From the IMG/VR virus record IMGVR_UViG_3300023116_000419, positions 1 through 21,381 of that record: 21,381 bases of DNA; one strand, 5' to 3'. Each line of letters opens with the position of its first letter. Within the stretch, counting starts at the first letter, position 1. This document shows, in pieces, positions 3,066-20,626 of the stretch. The translations under genes and the position numbers were made by a program. Under the pieces are notes generated by a model. It was not told the DNA's origin and did no database searches. It was given only the letters and a program-made list of their open reading frames with translations. The DNA is from a virus.

Positions 3066-4250
3066 ATGTCAGATAATTTACTAGAAGGCCGTTGGGGTGA
3101 GACCAAAGATGCCCTGTTAGAAGGTTTACAAGGTTCTCGCCGTACAACAATGGCTTCTGTGTTAGAAAACACAAAGAAGCACTTGGTAGAATCCGCAACA
3201 GGCGGTGCAACAACTAGTGGTAACGTTGCTACTCTTAACAGAGTTATTCTTCCAGTAATTAGACGAGTTATGCCAACTGTTATCGCTAACGAAATCGTTG
3301 GTGTTCAGCCAATGACTGGTCCAGTTGCACAAATTCACACATTACGTGTACGTTATGCTGAAACAGCAACATCAACAGCATCTGCTCCGTTTGATACAGA
3401 TACAGTTGCTGGTGACGAAGCTCTTTCACCATTCAAAATTGCTACAGCATATTCAGGTAGTTTAACTACTGGTCGTGCTGACAGCACAGCAACACTTGAA
3501 GGTTCACCAGGACGTAAGATTAACGTTCAGATCTTAAAGCAAGTTGTTGAAGCTAAGACCAGAAAGCTATCAGCTCGCTGGACATTTGAAGCCGCTCAAG
3601 ACGCACAGTCAATGCACGGCTTAGATGTTGAAGCAGAAATTATGGCTGCTTTAGCTCAAGAAATTACTGTTGAAATCGACCAGGAAGTACTTGGTTCTTT
3701 AAGAAGCCTAGCCGCTACTGAAGAAACATACAACCAGGCAGCAGTTTCAGGTACAGCTACATACGTTGGTGACGAGCATGCCGCTCTTGCTGTTTTAATT
3801 AACAGAGTTGCTAACAAGATTGCTCAAAGAACAAGACGTGGTGCAGGTAACTGGGCAGTTGTTTCCCCAGCCGCATTAACAGTTCTTCAGAGCGCAACAA
3901 CATCTGCATTTGCACGTACAACTGAAGGCACATTTGAAGCACCTACAAACACTAAGTTTGTTGGTACATTGAATGGTGCAATGAAAGTTTACGTTGATTC
4001 ATATGCAAGCGACACAACAGCAGTTCTAGTTGGTTATAAGGGTTCAAGCGAAGCTGATGCAGCCGCTTTCTACTGCCCATATATTCCATTAATGAGCTCT
4101 GGTGTTGTTTTAGATCCAGCAACATTTGAACCAGTTGTAGGCTTTATGACCAGATACGGTTATGTTGAGCTTACAAACACAGCGTCATCTCTTGGTAACG
4201 CTGGTGATTATGTTGGTGAGATTGCAATGAGCAACCTTTCTTTCTCATAA
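3066..4250 (+). CDS. 23: major capsid protein, gp23-like
   Basis: A 394-aa protein with clear gp23 signatures: VIRRVMPTVIANEIVGVQPMTGPV at about residues 66-89 (split here as VIRRVMPTVIAN and EIVGVQPMTGPV), a helix with RKLSARWTFEAAQDAQSMHG (about 161-180), then LDVEAEIMAALAQEI, and a C-terminal part including YCPYIPLMSSG. The N-terminus has a removable segment: LVE/SATGG places a gp21-type cut after Glu42, with two further LxE/G sites at Glu7 and Glu19. It is distinctly shorter than T4 gp23 (521 aa), suggesting that the inserted surface domain is reduced or absent. ATG follows AGGAGAAACTGA. The gene ends 46 bases before a strong terminator, and no gp24 copy follows. Confidence 0.95.
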   Translation: MSDNLLEGRWGETKDALLEGLQGSRRTTMASVLENTKKHLVESATGGATTSGNVATLNRVILPVIRRVMPTVIANEIVGVQPMTGPVAQIHTLRVRYAETATSTASAPFDTDTVAGDEALSPFKIATAYSGSLTTGRADSTATLEGSPGRKINVQILKQVVEAKTRKLSARWTFEAAQDAQSMHGLDVEAEIMAALAQEITVEIDQEVLGSLRSLAATEETYNQAAVSGTATYVGDEHAALAVLINRVANKIAQRTRRGAGNWAVVSPAALTVLQSATTSAFARTTEGTFEAPTNTKFVGTLNGAMKVYVDSYASDTTAVLVGYKGSSEADAAAFYCPYIPLMSSGVVLDPATFEPVVGFMTRYGYVELTNTASSLGNAGDYVGEIAMSNLSFS

Positions 4251-4296: not shown

Positions 4297-4319
4297 AGGG
4301 GTCGCAAGACCCCTTTTTT
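4297..4319 (+). terminator. rho-independent terminator after gp23
   Basis: Stem GGGGTC/GACCCC (4298-4303 with 4308-4313) with loop GCAA, followed by six T (4314-4319). A textbook intrinsic terminator that closes the head operon and insulates the riboswitch cassette that follows. Confidence 0.93.
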
Positions 4320-4343
4320 GTTGACTTTATATATAGGATAGTG

Positions 4344-4351
4344 TATAAATA
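4344..4351 (+). promoter_or_regulatory. T4-type late promoter of the riboswitch cassette
   Basis: A perfect TATAAATA. With the usual late-promoter spacing, transcription would start near 4357, one base before the first aptamer stem begins at 4358, so the RNA would carry almost no sequence 5' of the aptamer. Confidence 0.75.
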
Positions 4352-4357
4352 TATACA

Positions 4358-4407
4358 CGTTCAGCTGTAAGGCCGGAAGTAGACTTCATTATTAGTCGAA
4401 GGAACGC
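4358..4407 (+). promoter_or_regulatory. glutamine riboswitch aptamer 1 (glnA-type)
   Basis: Matches the glutamine (glnA / downstream-peptide) aptamer core: outer stem P1 CGTTC (4358-4362) with GAACG (4402-4406); a short P2 GCT/GGC closed by GTAA; conserved CGGAAGTAG (4374-4382); P3 GACT/AGTC (4382-4385 with 4393-4396) with an 8-base loop; then CGAAGGAACGC. P2 is weak (3 bp with one G-U), so this copy may bind less well than the second. This RNA class binds free L-glutamine in cyanobacterial and marine sequences (established). Binding here is inferred. Confidence 0.85.
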
Positions 4408-4415
4408 ATTATCAT

Positions 4416-4464
4416 CGTTCATCTCGAAAGAGACGGAAGTAGGTAATGGTTACCGAAGGAACGC
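4416..4464 (+). promoter_or_regulatory. glutamine riboswitch aptamer 2 (glnA-type), tandem copy
   Basis: The second copy starts 8 bases after the first. P1 is CGTTC (4416-4420) with GAACG (4459-4463); P2 is TCTC GAAA GAGA, a stable tetraloop hairpin; conserved ACGGAAGTAGG (4433-4443); P3 is GGTAA TGG TTACC (4442-4446 with 4450-4454); then CGAAGGAACGC (4454-4464). Every conserved element of the class is present. Tandem arrangement is known for glnA RNAs and is thought to sharpen the response. It sits 28 bases upstream of the peptide start codon. Confidence 0.9.
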
Positions 4465-4492
4465 ACCTAACTGTAAAAAGGAGGGTGTTAAC
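4463..4492 (+). promoter_or_regulatory. expression platform and strong ribosome binding site of the peptide gene
   Basis: AAGGAGG at 4478-4484, 8 bases before ATG 4493, is the strongest ribosome site in the window. No terminator lies between aptamer and ORF, so control is probably translational. GCACCT (4463-4468) can pair with GGGTGT (4483-4488), with two wobble pairs, covering the 3' end of the ribosome site. It uses the last P1 base, so it could compete with the folded aptamer. This mechanism is inference. Confidence 0.5.
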
Positions 4493-4600
4493 ATGACAAT
4501 GTGGACTCGCTATTGTAGAGAGCAAGCACAGAAAGACTATCATAAGTCTCAAATGCTTAAAATCTTATTGTTACGTGCAATACACGAAACAGATAAGTGA
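4493..4600 (+). CDS. 35-aa peptide under glutamine riboswitch control
   Basis: ATG 4493 to TGA 4598-4600, beginning MTMWTRYCREQAQKDYHK and ending in a Leu-rich helix and HETDK. Net positive (seven Lys/Arg against four Asp/Glu). Residues about 9-31 could form an amphipathic helix; there is no signal peptide. It is supported as a real gene by the strong AAGGAGG, the riboswitch upstream and a terminator starting 5 bases after the stop. In cyanobacteria the downstream-peptide class of glutamine riboswitch precedes short ORFs, and in Synechocystis it controls a small glutamine-synthetase inactivating protein (established). Whether this peptide touches host nitrogen metabolism is unknown. It is one of only two frames here ending in TGA. 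Confidence 0.8.
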   Translation: MTMWTRYCREQAQKDYHKSQMLKILLLRAIHETDK

Positions 4601-4605
4601 ACTTC

Positions 4606-4629
4606 AAGGGGCTGAAACGCCCCTTTTTT
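4606..4629 (+). terminator. rho-independent terminator after riboswitch peptide
   Basis: Stem GGGGC/GCCCC (4608-4612 with 4619-4623), extended by two A-T pairs, loop TGAAAC, six T. It ends the cassette and separates it from the next late promoter at 4644. Confidence 0.92.
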
Positions 4630-4656: not shown

Positions 4657-4744
4657 GTTCAGTAGTTAGGTAAAACTGACTTATGCTGTCCCAACAGCGT
4701 AGCGACTAGAACTCGCATTGGACTTCTTAACAAGGAGAAAACAA
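4657..4744 (+). promoter_or_regulatory. structured 5' leader with sequestered ribosome site
   Basis: Four successive hairpins: TCAGT/ACTGA (4659-4663 with 4675-4679); ATGCTGT/ACAGCGT (4683-4689 with 4694-4700, loop CCCA); GCGA/TCGC (4702-4705 with 4713-4716); and CTTCTT/AAGGAG (4723-4728 with 4732-4737, loop AAC, one T-G), which encloses the whole Shine-Dalgarno sequence. The loop of the first hairpin holds GTTAGG (4665-4670), complementary to CTTAAC (4726-4731) in the ribosome-site hairpin, so pairing there would free AAGGAG. I do not recognise a known riboswitch family. The switching behaviour is inference. Confidence 0.45.
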
Positions 4745-5179
4745 ATGGGAAGACCTTTAAAATTAGCAGAAACAGTTGACGGCAACTTAAAAGTTCCTTC
4801 AGCAAACACATCAGGTACTATCGGTAATACAGCACTTAGTGGTTCTACACAGATCCAATTTACAGGTTACGTTACTGGTGGTTCAGCAAACACTGGTTAT
4901 GCTTCTAAGCAAACAGGTAGCAAAACATTCAAAGTTACTACAAGTGACGGCACAGAAGATTTGTTATTAACAGCAGTTGCCAGCGGTAGTTTAGCCGCAG
5001 GACAATGCCAGTTAACAGCAACAGATAGCGCAGGTGGAACATACTATGTAAGTAAAATTACATCACGTTATGTTACACTAGTTCCTAATGACGGTACACA
5101 GTGGTCATCCGGTCAAAAAGCATTGTGGGTAGCAAGTGGTCCTTCATTGAACACTTCAGTTAGTATCCCAATGGCATAA
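4745..5179 (+). CDS. putative small virion structural protein
   Basis: A 144-aa protein starting MGRPLKLAETVDGNLKVP. ATG 4745 was chosen over ATG 4718 because AAGGAG (4732-4737) lies 7 bases before it, while 4718 lies inside the structured leader with no ribosome site. The sequence is Ser/Thr/Gly-rich with alternating beta-type segments and no catalytic motif, ending VSIPMA. It is a single-gene unit with its own late promoter and terminator next to the capsid gene, consistent with an abundant head or decoration protein, but no family is recognised. A neck or tail component is equally possible. Confidence 0.75.
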   Translation: MGRPLKLAETVDGNLKVPSANTSGTIGNTALSGSTQIQFTGYVTGGSANTGYASKQTGSKTFKVTTSDGTEDLLLTAVASGSLAAGQCQLTATDSAGGTYYVSKITSRYVTLVPNDGTQWSSGQKALWVASGPSLNTSVSIPMA

Positions 5180-5236: not shown

Positions 5237-5821
5237 ATGACACCAATAGCATTTATTATCGGAAACGGACGCAGTAGATTAGACATAGACTTGGAAAGTC
5301 TAAGAGGTCGAGGCATGATCTACGGATGTAATGCCTTGTATAGAGACTTTACTCCCGATGTATTAATAGCAACAGACGGTGGTATAGCAAAAGAGATACA
5401 AGAATCTGGTTATGCAAAAACAAATAGATTTTATACACGTAGGCCTATAGAAGGATTGGGAGCGAAACCCATTGAACATAACTACGGTTGGTCAAGCGGA
5501 CAAGTAGCCTTAAGTTATGCTTGCCATGCTAAACACAGTTACTTGTACATGATTGGATTTGATCTAGCAGGATTGAACGAACATCAAAAGTTCAATAATG
5601 TTTATGCAGATACCGATCACTATAAAAACTCAACAGAGAAACCAACGTTTTACGGTAACTGGTTAAAACAAATACATCAAACTGTAACAGAGTTTAAAAA
5701 CAAGCGTTTTGTTAGAGTAATAGCAGAAGATGGCTATGAACCTCCTGAGCTTAAACCTTTAAAAAATATGCAACACATGTCTACAAACGAATTTAAAACC
5801 GTGCTAAATACATTGAAATAG
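5237..5821 (+). CDS. GNGxSR-family protein, putative glycosyltransferase-like (copy 1)
   Basis: A 194-aa protein. The N-terminal Rossmann-like motif IIGNGRSRLDIDL (residues 7-19) is followed by YGCNALYRDFTPDVLIATD (29-47), SSGQVALSYAC and YMIGFDL in the middle, and NNVYADTDHY. The GNGxS...D...CN pattern resembles the nucleotide-sugar-binding half of DUF115/Maf-like and GT42 sialyltransferase-like proteins, so a role in sugar transfer is a reasonable guess, not a demonstration. A paralogue with the same motifs lies at 19904-20626. The start is odd: ATG immediately follows the terminator T tract with no ribosome site, yet no later start keeps the GNG motif. It precedes the fibre genes by 10 bases. 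Confidence 0.75.
   Translation: MTPIAFIIGNGRSRLDIDLESLRGRGMIYGCNALYRDFTPDVLIATDGGIAKEIQESGYAKTNRFYTRRPIEGLGAKPIEHNYGWSSGQVALSYACHAKHSYLYMIGFDLAGLNEHQKFNNVYADTDHYKNSTEKPTFYGNWLKQIHQTVTEFKNKRFVRVIAEDGYEPPELKPLKNMQHMSTNEFKTVLNTLK
5804..5811 (+). promoter_or_regulatory. candidate late promoter for fibre-like genes
   Basis: CTAAATAC within the last codons of the preceding gene, 28 bases before ATG 5832. Same 7-mer as the sites at 11919 and 17766. The predicted start is near 5816. Confidence 0.4.
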
Positions 5822-17795: not shown

Positions 17796-19904
17796 ATGGC
17801 ATTAACTCGACCTAAAGCGGCGCAGATTAACTTCGATTTAACGAATATAACCGATCCGGTTATACGGTTAAACTCCGATCACACAGGCGCTAACGACACA
17901 GATGTTGGATTTATATTCGAGCGTGGTTCCTCAGGAGATAATGCGGTACTAATATGGGACGAATCAGCGGCGCAATTTGTAGTAGGAACTACAACAGCAA
18001 CGGGTGTTACTCAGGGCGATTTAACAGTTACCAACGGTAATCTACAAGTAGACACAATTAAAAATAGAGAACAGCGTTATACAACTTCGAACATGATGAA
18101 GTTTAACCAGTTATACACTGGTGCGGCTTCAGGCAGTTACTTTGAACAAAACGAATATCAAAAGATTGTAACAATCATTCCTAGTGCGGCTTCTCAAAAC
18201 TATCAAGTGTCGGGACGCATCTTGTGTCAAACTGCTGGTTCAATACAGACCATAAACTTTATAGCGGCACTAAGATCAAACACACTTCCCGATCTAGATT
18301 GGTCAATTACCTACACAGAACAACACAACGGTACAGCACACTTTAAACCTCAGTTATGGACAAAAGAAACTACAACAGCAGGATTTATTTTTGCTATACA
18401 AAAGATTTCCAGTGGTAGTCTATATGGAACTGTAACAGTTGATTTAGACGTTATACCTAGAGCAAGTAGCCAACTAGACAATGTTACTGTAAACACCACG
18501 CAGGACAGTGAACAAACATCAATTGACGCAGGATATACTGCAAACGATATGACTTTAGTGCAAAGCATATCAGGAAGTGCTATTGAGTTTAGCAATGCGT
18601 ATACCTTTCCAACAGCAGATGGTAGTGCTAACCAAATATTGCAAACAGACGGTAGCGGCACACTAAGTTTTGTTGACAACACTGGTGCAGGTATTGGCAA
18701 CGTTGTAGAAGACACCACACCACAACTTGGCGGAGATTTAGATTTAAACTCTAGTGATATTACAGGTACAGGTAATATTAATATTACAGGAACTGCTACA
18801 TTATCTGGTAATCTAACAGTTGATACAAACACACTTTTTGTCAATGCTTCAAATAATAGAGTCGGTATTGGAACAGCAAGTCCAGCATACCAAGTAGAAA
18901 TAGAAAACACCAGTGCAAACGCATTATTGGTGTTAGATAGAACAGACGGTGCTTCTACTTTCATTGAAGGTGGTGCCACTGATTCGGTGATTGGTTCTGT
19001 TGGATCCAACGATGTAAAAATAGCCTACAATAGTGTTCCAGTGGTCACAATTGGATCAGGTGGTGCTATTACAACATCAGGTGATGTAACAGCAGGTACT
19101 CTAACTGTATCAGGTGAATTAACAGTAGACACCGACACGCTCTATGTAGACTCTACAAATAATAGAGTAGGTATTGGGACGACTAGTCCTACTTCTTTAT
19201 TACATTTAAAATCTACTGGTCCAGCAATATTAACATTAGAAGCAGATTCAGATAATGCGACTGAAACTGATAACGCTAGAATAGAATTATCTCAAGATGG
19301 TGGGGTAGTTACAGGAAGTATTGGATACGCTAATAATACAAATTCTATTGAACTATGGAATAATTATGCTGACCATTTAATTTTTGGCACTAATAACACA
19401 GAACGCATGCGTATCGACTCTTCTGGTAACGTAGGGATTGGTACGGCTAGTCCTTCTACTGAATTAGAAGTAGTTGGAACAGTAACAGCAACATTGTTTG
19501 ATGGAACAGCAACATCAGCTAGGTACGCTGACTTGGCAGAGAATTATGTTGCAGACGCTCAGTACGAACCAGGTACAGTTTTAATATTTGGTGGTCAACA
19601 CGAAGTAACAGCCAGCAGACAACCAGATAGCAACAAGATTGCTGGAGTAGTTTCTACAGCACCAGGTGTATTAATGAACAAAGACTGCGCAGGTGAGTTT
19701 GTTGTTGCTCTAGCATTTACTGGACGAGTGCCTACAAAAGTTAAGGGTACTATTAGCAAAGGCGACATGATGGTAAGCAGTAACATTGAAGGTGTTGCTG
19801 TAGCCAGTAACAATCCTCAAATAGGAACAGTTATAGGAAAAGCATTAGAAAACTACGATAGTGAGGAAGTTGGCGTTATTGAAGTTGTTGTAGGAAGACT
19901 CTAA
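17796..19904 (+). CDS. tail-fibre-type protein, 702 aa
   Basis: The N-terminus (about residues 8-70) has VIRLNSDHTG, GFIFERGSSGDNAVLIWDESAAQF (shared with the giant fibre). Residues about 85-260 are unique beta sequence. DTTPQLGGDLDLN is near 308. Three copies of the VGIGTxSP element lie at about 349, 454 and 546; these are typical shaft joints in marine phage fibres. The C-terminal about 130 residues (SARYADLAENYVAD...VIGKALENYD...VIEVVVGR) match the last domain of the giant fibre. It is probably a receptor-binding or companion fibre (inference). ATG follows AAAGGATTATTTTTAGT, a loosely spaced ribosome site. Its TAA overlaps the ATG of the next gene, linking it to the GNGxSR enzyme-like protein. 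Confidence 0.85.
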   Translation: MALTRPKAAQINFDLTNITDPVIRLNSDHTGANDTDVGFIFERGSSGDNAVLIWDESAAQFVVGTTTATGVTQGDLTVTNGNLQVDTIKNREQRYTTSNMMKFNQLYTGAASGSYFEQNEYQKIVTIIPSAASQNYQVSGRILCQTAGSIQTINFIAALRSNTLPDLDWSITYTEQHNGTAHFKPQLWTKETTTAGFIFAIQKISSGSLYGTVTVDLDVIPRASSQLDNVTVNTTQDSEQTSIDAGYTANDMTLVQSISGSAIEFSNAYTFPTADGSANQILQTDGSGTLSFVDNTGAGIGNVVEDTTPQLGGDLDLNSSDITGTGNINITGTATLSGNLTVDTNTLFVNASNNRVGIGTASPAYQVEIENTSANALLVLDRTDGASTFIEGGATDSVIGSVGSNDVKIAYNSVPVVTIGSGGAITTSGDVTAGTLTVSGELTVDTDTLYVDSTNNRVGIGTTSPTSLLHLKSTGPAILTLEADSDNATETDNARIELSQDGGVVTGSIGYANNTNSIELWNNYADHLIFGTNNTERMRIDSSGNVGIGTASPSTELEVVGTVTATLFDGTATSARYADLAENYVADAQYEPGTVLIFGGQHEVTASRQPDSNKIAGVVSTAPGVLMNKDCAGEFVVALAFTGRVPTKVKGTISKGDMMVSSNIEGVAVASNNPQIGTVIGKALENYDSEEVGVIEVVVGRL

Positions 19905-20626
19905 TGCAAAAACTGTATCGCACCGACTACGAAGGTGAGTTTATAATTGATGGATACGTCTTAAAAGAAGGCAGACGTTACGAAAACAGAGAGTTTATAC
20001 CCAACACCATAGTAAACAATCAGCACACAGGCAGAGCTGTGGTCATAGGCAACGGCACTTCTAGACTAGCAGTAGACTTACGAAAGATAGAACGTCATGC
20101 TGGCGGACATCTAGGTAAACGACGCTTACAAAGTTATGGCTGTAATGCACTATACAGAGACATGAATCCAGAATTTCTTGTGTCTACCAATAATTTTATG
20201 GTCAATGAAATTGTTAGAAGTGGATATGCAGATAAGCACATTGTTATGTCAAACAGTAACAACTGCATTAACCATCCAGGCAAAGTACATCTCATACCAT
20301 ATGCAATTAATTTGTGTGCCGGCGCAACAGCACTCTATCTAGCATGCTTCGACGGACACAAGACTGTGTATATTTTAGGTTTTGACAACCAAGACGGCGA
20401 CATTAATAACAATGTATATGCAGGAACAACCAACTACGCAGACAAAGAGCATAAAGTCAGTAGCAAAAAGTGGGAAGGACAAACCAAACGTATTATTGAT
20501 ACATACGATGATGTAGATTTTGTCTGGATTACGGGTGGTCGTTCACGATTTCCTGAACAGTGGAAGCATTGTGTAAATTTGCGTGAGATAACTGTGCGAG
20601 ACTTTTCGTTAGAAGTGGACTTATAA
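19904..20626 (+). CDS. GNGxSR-family protein, putative glycosyltransferase-like (copy 2)
   Basis: A 240-aa paralogue of the 194-aa protein at 5237. Shared motifs: VVIGNGTSRLAVDL (46-59), YGCNALYRDMNPEFLVST (78-95), AGATALYLACFDGHKTVYILGFD (about 136-158, quoted in parts: AGATALYLAC, YILGFD) and NNVYAGTTNY. It has an extra N-terminal about 44 residues (MQKLYRTDYEGEFIIDGYVL) not in copy 1. The motif set recalls DUF115/Maf-like or GT42-type nucleotide-sugar binders; substrate unknown. It is translationally coupled (TAATG) to the 702-aa fibre, suggesting it acts on, or with, fibre proteins (inference). Its 3' end overlaps the convergent Nudix gene by 6 bases. Confidence 0.78.
   Translation: MQKLYRTDYEGEFIIDGYVLKEGRRYENREFIPNTIVNNQHTGRAVVIGNGTSRLAVDLRKIERHAGGHLGKRRLQSYGCNALYRDMNPEFLVSTNNFMVNEIVRSGYADKHIVMSNSNNCINHPGKVHLIPYAINLCAGATALYLACFDGHKTVYILGFDNQDGDINNNVYAGTTNYADKEHKVSSKKWEGQTKRIIDTYDDVDFVWITGGRSRFPEQWKHCVNLREITVRDFSLEVDL

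Follow-up and report, generated by a model that had tools for sequence, protein, structure and literature searches.

The window, that is, the whole stretch of viral DNA that we analysed, is a complete IMG/VR record of 21,381 bases. A gene for a T4-superfamily major capsid protein (gp23; phrog_138, E 1e-101) occupies positions 3066-4250. Its nucleotide similarity is mostly to jumbo phages, for example 121Q and Munch, and one closely related locus (L282) sits in a 289-kb contig. Directly downstream of the capsid gene lies a cassette on the plus strand, which consists of a promoter, a tandem riboswitch of the glutamine-I class, a gene for a small basic protein, and a terminator.

Elements of the cassette

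The cassette is separated from its neighbours by intrinsic terminators on both sides, one after the capsid gene (4297-4314, a 7-pair stem AGGGGTCGCAAGACCCCT followed by TTTTT) and one at its own end (4606-4625, a 7-pair stem followed by a T tail); there are three terminator-like hairpins with T tails in the region, compared with 0.3 expected. The initial annotation of this DNA had described a tandem glutamine riboswitch in a self-contained phage unit between two terminators, with a small protein encoded beside gp23, and all of these elements were located. A survey of relatives for the same arrangement, which it had also proposed, found 16 or more related contigs (capsid identity 83-100%) with the cassette 3' of the capsid gene; in other relatives the slot after gp23 is filled by other, unrelated inserts.

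The type of promoter, however, has to be revised. The octamer TATAAATA, which had been read as a late promoter, is present at 4344-4351, but it overlaps a sigma-70-type promoter, TTGACT-N17-TATAAA (4321-4349), in which TTGACT (4321-4326) stands exactly 17 nt before TATAAATA. Both the hexamer and the 17-nt spacing are kept in 14 of the 16 phage cassettes that carry the octamer and encode a peptide of the same family as the window's (family A, below), while the sequence of the 17-base spacer varies; thus, we read the promoter as sigma-70 type. The octamer occurs twice in the window, as often as by chance (mean 1.67). We therefore rejected a T4-type late promoter, consisting of TATAAATA without a -35 element, for the window copy, for which the term 'late' is unsupported. 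TTGACA-like hexamers were also seen, by eye, upstream of the family-A cassettes of bacteria. If the standard spacing holds, transcription would start at about 4357, one base before the P1 helix, so that the RNA would begin at the edge of the riboswitch. In the cassettes of other peptide families, TTGACT at 17 nt was found in none of 34 with the octamer. There the octamer stands alone and is mostly found 14-17 bases upstream of the GTTC in P1, which makes a T4-late role plausible in those families. Over all families, 46 of 54 octamers lie at -17 to -14 relative to this GTTC, and ATAAATA was seen 92 times compared with 9 expected.

The two aptamers lie at 4356-4410 (P1, 4358-4362/4402-4406) and 4414-4467 (P1, 4416-4420/4459-4463). 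In a covariance search they scored 47.8 and 61.1 bits, respectively, against RF01739, whose gathering score is 35 bits, in agreement with the annotation of two complete glnA aptamers. From this family membership we infer that they would bind glutamine. A covariance search with the Downstream-peptide (glutamine-II, RF01704) model gave no match in the window even at E<=1, and weak Rfam matches to DUF2693 and SNORA29 were discarded as far below threshold.

Downstream of the aptamers, the Shine-Dalgarno (SD) sequence AAGGAGG (4478-4484) precedes an open reading frame of 35 codons (4493-4600), both as annotated. The encoded basic protein, MTMWTRYCREQAQKDYHKSQMLKILLLRAIHETDK, belongs to family A, in which M1, W4, Y7, C8, and A12 are invariant in 18 phage and host sequences. 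Over nine 35-aa family-A coding sequences pN/pS was 0.43, and close relatives differed by 3 synonymous and 0 nonsynonymous changes in one case and by 5 and 1 in another. These values indicate purifying selection, and the reading frame is thus very probably coding. The window peptide matched no family in Pfam or PHROG, including DUF4278 (PF14105) at the Pfam cutoff, and had no tblastn match in known phages. Homology of family A to the cyanobacterial inhibitors IF7 and IF17 was rejected, because the hhalign probability against cyanobacterial IF17-like proteins was 0.1%.

Two further features of the window were noted. A freshwater-2 RNA (RF02980, 70 bits), a cis-regulatory motif, lies at 4664-4747 and ends at the ATG (4745) of the next gene, with the second TATAAATA (4644) just upstream of it; this RNA was also found in six relatives (L001, L003, L013, L051, L057, and L074). 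Elsewhere, the genes at 5237-5821 and 19904-20626 are both similar to phrog_30607 and about 30% identical to each other, possibly as the result of an ancient split or duplication.

Folding of the leader and direction of the switch

A hairpin, P4 (CACCU/GGGUG, 4464-4487, -8.7 kcal/mol), begins at the base right after the 3' strand of P1 of aptamer 2 and pairs bases in or just 3' of the SD sequence, which lies partly within it by sequence and by pairing probabilities. A P4 of at least 5 bp was found in 87 of 108 distinct leaders, compared with at most 56 in 500 swaps of the pairing partners between leaders. The mean fold energy of P4 was -6.6 kcal/mol versus -1.8 in shuffles, and the first base after P1 was paired in 82% of the real leaders versus 15% of the shuffles. 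The swap controls leave shared ancestry uncorrected, but the many distinct compensatory types (CACCU-GGGUG, CAUCU-AGAUG, CACUU-AAGUG, CACUC-GAGUG, CAAUC-GAUUG, and CAUUU-GAAUG) argue against shared ancestry alone as the explanation. The aptamers are thus coupled to the downstream gene by an expression platform, an SD hairpin with compensatory changes, and the results indicate translational control via P4. In the mechanism that we propose, the riboswitch would control translation of the 35-aa protein through this hairpin abutting P1 of aptamer 2.

As for the sign of this control, we lean slightly toward glutamine raising translation rather than lowering it. On its own, P4 is a stable hairpin (median -7.6 kcal/mol in flush leaders), and this speaks for a switch by which it is opened. 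The C after P1 is also conserved in aptamers without P4, so the aptamer may compete for this base, and both of the experimentally tested classes of glutamine riboswitch activate (PMC6316151). The same cassette with the opposite sign is the best of the alternatives and has a real, though minority, chance of being correct: P1, stabilised by the ligand, would stack flush on P4 and lock the SD sequence, and the peptide would be made only when glutamine is scarce. There is indeed no gap between P1 and P4, and such flush stacking by itself predicts glutamine-induced repression; moreover, for amt and glnA, which stand under the same aptamer class in bacteria, one would expect glutamine to act as a repressor. 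A longer P1, with bases -1 and +2 paired, was considered as the cause of the switch direction and rejected, because it is inconsistent across aptamers, with A-A in many.

The two aptamers of the tandem are linked by CAUUAUC (4407-4413), which complements P3/L3 of aptamer 2 (GGUAAUG, 4442-4448). Together with the 3' strand of P1 of aptamer 1, the linker forms a helix of 12 bp with which neither aptamer can take its native fold. The lowest-energy fold of the window copy is not that of the two aptamers: 4401-4413 pairs with 4442-4454, in P3 of aptamer 2 (p 0.89-0.97), and the 5' strand of the first P1 pairs weakly with the 3' strand of the second. The forced native fold lies 7.5 kcal/mol above this minimum, before ligand and tertiary energy are counted. 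The complementarity is retained in relatives through compensatory changes (CAUUAUC/GGUAAUG, CAUUGUU/GGCAAUG, UAUUAUC/GGUAAUA, and CAUUACU/GGUAAUG), and linkers of the CAUU/UAUU type complement P3 of aptamer 2 by at least 5 bp in 28 of 29 viral cases. Linkers of the CAUC type complement the SD sequence in 11 of 11, and 10 viral tandems with CCGA, CCAC, CACT, or TACT linkers fit neither pairing. In contrast, the tandems before amt and glnA in bacteria have an unrelated linker (CAUGCAAAG...), and their native folds are mostly about 0-4 kcal/mol from the minimum. The alternative helix is thus characteristic of the peptide cassettes. Without ligand, the 3' strand of the first P1 and the linker would pair with P3 of aptamer 2, so that both aptamers would fold together or not at all; ligand binding would then be cooperative, and a sharper response would be expected.

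Peptide cassettes in phages and bacteria

By pattern scans of viral contigs, we found at least 166 distinct aptamer runs, of which at least 62 were tandem; at least 153 of the runs had an SD sequence and a short reading frame downstream. The peptides after the viral aptamers are basic, 28-78 aa long, and fall into at least six families: A (LWTRYCR), B (ending in PFYP/PWY), C (YRG repeats, DUF4278), D (WCY/WCF), E (GTSGY), and F (DPRLQKI), with 20 others among the matches listed. The 134 distinct complete peptides among the matches listed have a median length of 49 and a median net charge of +7, and 97% carry +3 or more. Family A is related to a small WxDYC group (hhalign 97%) and possibly to family D (78%). 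Phage peptides of family C match DUF4278 (36.9 and 37.5 bits, cutoff 25.3) and the N-terminus of IF17; the C-terminus of IF17 is the IF7-like part. In L106, L154, L196, and L335, which comprise some phages (with a GTG start) and a contig labelled Rickettsiales, a different and less basic protein of 77-78 aa follows the aptamer.

Counterparts of these cassettes exist on bacterial chromosomes. Among the matches listed in a genome scan, the genes behind the aptamer in marine alpha- and gammaproteobacteria included amt, glnA, and gltB, besides others, and in cyanobacteria they were IF17-like DUF4278 genes; the amt, glnA, gltB, and IF17-like identities were read from translated starts and not from family searches. 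Peptide cassettes were found in SAR86 (family B and a KKDVFFPYYL group) and, of the YRG/DUF4278-like type, in SAR92 and SAR86, again among the matches listed. Eight alphaproteobacterial sequences (L304, L328, L342, L350, L352, L358, L366, and L396) contain a pair of tandem glutamine riboswitches with about 2 kb between them, which precede what look like two ammonium-transporter genes.

Family-A cassettes were found in marine betaproteobacteria (L307 and L386) amid ordinary chromosomal genes; no nitrogen genes were evident, by eye, among the reading frames neighbouring the host cassettes. In one marine betaproteobacterial family, 8 of 17 genomes had a single tandem, which in every case preceded a family-A peptide and was the only glutamine riboswitch of the genome. 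The leader, peptide, and terminator of one betaproteobacterial copy (L424) closely resemble those of the phage cassette. This likeness suggests exchange of the cassette between phage and this bacterial family, which is thus a candidate host of the phage. In L424, two fused or duplicated family-A peptides are present in one reading frame of 72 aa.

GlnE, the adenylyltransferase of glutamine synthetase (GS), is the usual off-switch of that enzyme. It was absent in 8 of the 8 betaproteobacterial carriers and in 2 of the 9 non-carriers of the same family, seven of which have it (Fisher P 0.002). In the family of a SAR92 genome with a DUF4278-like cassette (G004), GlnE was absent in 4 of 4 genomes with the riboswitch and in 30 of the 108 genomes without it (P 0.007). 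One of the four (G315) was scored as negative because it was not among the listed positives, and this genome was counted by its riboswitch with the downstream gene unread. Both comparisons are limited by confounding with phylogeny and by the incompleteness of metagenome-assembled genomes. GlnE was also absent in two SAR86 carriers and in G004 itself, while each of the 20 genomes in the first set had PII and GS. In most non-carriers with GlnE the adenylylation loop of GS is NLYDLPPEE or NLYDL, and in carriers it is DLYTM(S/T/A)PEE (one TREE), with the adenylylated-type tyrosine retained in the betaproteobacterial carriers. One non-carrier (G008) also has no GlnE and shares the altered loop of the carriers.

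Possible role of the protein and comparison with known systems

The presence of host cassettes in bacteria without GlnE suggests that the protein tunes host nitrogen assimilation. Our main reading, to which we give a probability of about 0.5, is that of a self-contained cassette of host origin whose small protein is made under the control of glutamine and acts on nitrogen assimilation; most likely it would stand in for GlnE as a brake on GS in bacteria that lack this enzyme. It is built on the aptamers, the covariation of hairpin and linker, the coding sequence, the host cassettes, and the anticorrelation with GlnE that we computed here. The loss of GlnE and the change in the GS loop point to GS as the target, and the role as a brake is considered most likely by analogy with IF17, whose gene is controlled by an aptamer of this class; as with IF7 and IF17, the peptides may, at high glutamine, target GS or proteins that regulate it. 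Several findings count against the GS-brake reading: family A has no homology to IF7/IF17, the cassettes are not beside nitrogen genes, the loop tyrosine is kept, and G008, a non-carrier, also lacks GlnE and has the altered loop.

It is possible, though rather unlikely, that the peptide targets another nitrogen protein (PII, AmtB, GOGAT, or a transcription factor) instead of GS. PII occurs in all carriers examined, and a cyanobacterial small protein, PirA, is described as a PII interactor (PMC8092223); the GlnE and GS-loop differences speak for GS. We consider it improbable that the peptide is a small morphogenesis or lysis protein of the phage, matched to amino-acid supply, for which the place after gp23 matters. 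Such a role would fit the conserved position after the capsid gene and the lysis timing proposed by the authors of the report on phage Melnitz (PMC9004378), but bacteria carry peptides of this family on their chromosomes and the slot itself accepts unrelated inserts. That the aptamers are degenerate or have another ligand, leaving the cassette constitutive, is very improbable: binding by the window copy is deduced from its family, but the core CGGAAGUA...GAAGGAACG is intact and P1-P3 are kept with stem changes in 100 distinct aptamers, in the gathering of which this core was part of the search pattern.

If the GS-brake reading is true, a riboswitch-driven micro-protein would account for the post-translational control of GS in streamlined marine bacteria without GlnE, and, as it is widespread in phages, viral infection would respond directly to the nutrient state. 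In its broadest form, which we regard as doubtful, a new class of micro-proteins under glutamine riboswitches would replace adenylylation by GlnE as the feedback on GS in marine beta- and gammaproteobacteria with streamlined genomes, and many lineages of phages, jumbo phages among them, would carry such regulators to take over host nitrogen assimilation in the course of infection.

A glutamine riboswitch in a phage is not unique to the window, as such elements have been reported earlier (PMC9004378, PMC9964418), although the reports covered here do not describe the peptide reading frame and the expression platform; glutamine riboswitches associated with peptides are also known. We found no description of the P4 hairpin abutting P1, the alternative fold of the linker, the family-A host gene, the anticorrelation with GlnE, or the wide range of peptide families in the literature that we covered, outside which lies PMC6212724 with the main experiments on glutamine-I; parts of the platform may have been described before. 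The cassette provides a tandem riboswitch whose aptamers are joined by a predicted mutually exclusive helix.

The closest known RNA is the glutamine-I riboswitch of cyanobacterial gifB (RF01739), which shares the core, P1-P3, and a small basic protein downstream, and for which tandems are known (PMC2864571, PMC6316151). The window copy differs in being phage-borne, in the SD hairpin abutting P1, in the helix between the linker and P3 of aptamer 2, and in a peptide family unrelated to IF17. The Downstream-peptide RNA (RF01704) of marine picocyanobacteria likewise senses glutamine and lies upstream of short peptides, but the window does not match it. IF7 and IF17, which control cyanobacterial GS, are also small basic proteins; they inhibit the enzyme, and the glutamine riboswitch that governs IF17 is an activating one (PMC6316151). 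Family A has no sequence homology to them, and only the DUF4278 phage peptides match the N-terminus of IF17. Finally, the cultured marine T4-like phages Melnitz and Mosig (PMC9004378) also have a glnA aptamer with an SD sequence and a peptide downstream, but each has a single aptamer and a peptide of another family. In Mosig the aptamer precedes a family-F gene, Mosig_00116. In Melnitz (L410 2499-2668) the aptamer (2499-2547) is followed by an SD sequence and, at 2570, by an unannotated family-D reading frame of 32 aa (MTLYQQWCYLKAQKEYRRRQKILMYFRIRLKG). The Melnitz riboswitch was published as controlling tmRNA (PMC9004378); this link may be incidental, and our analysis suggests a new reading of that riboswitch.
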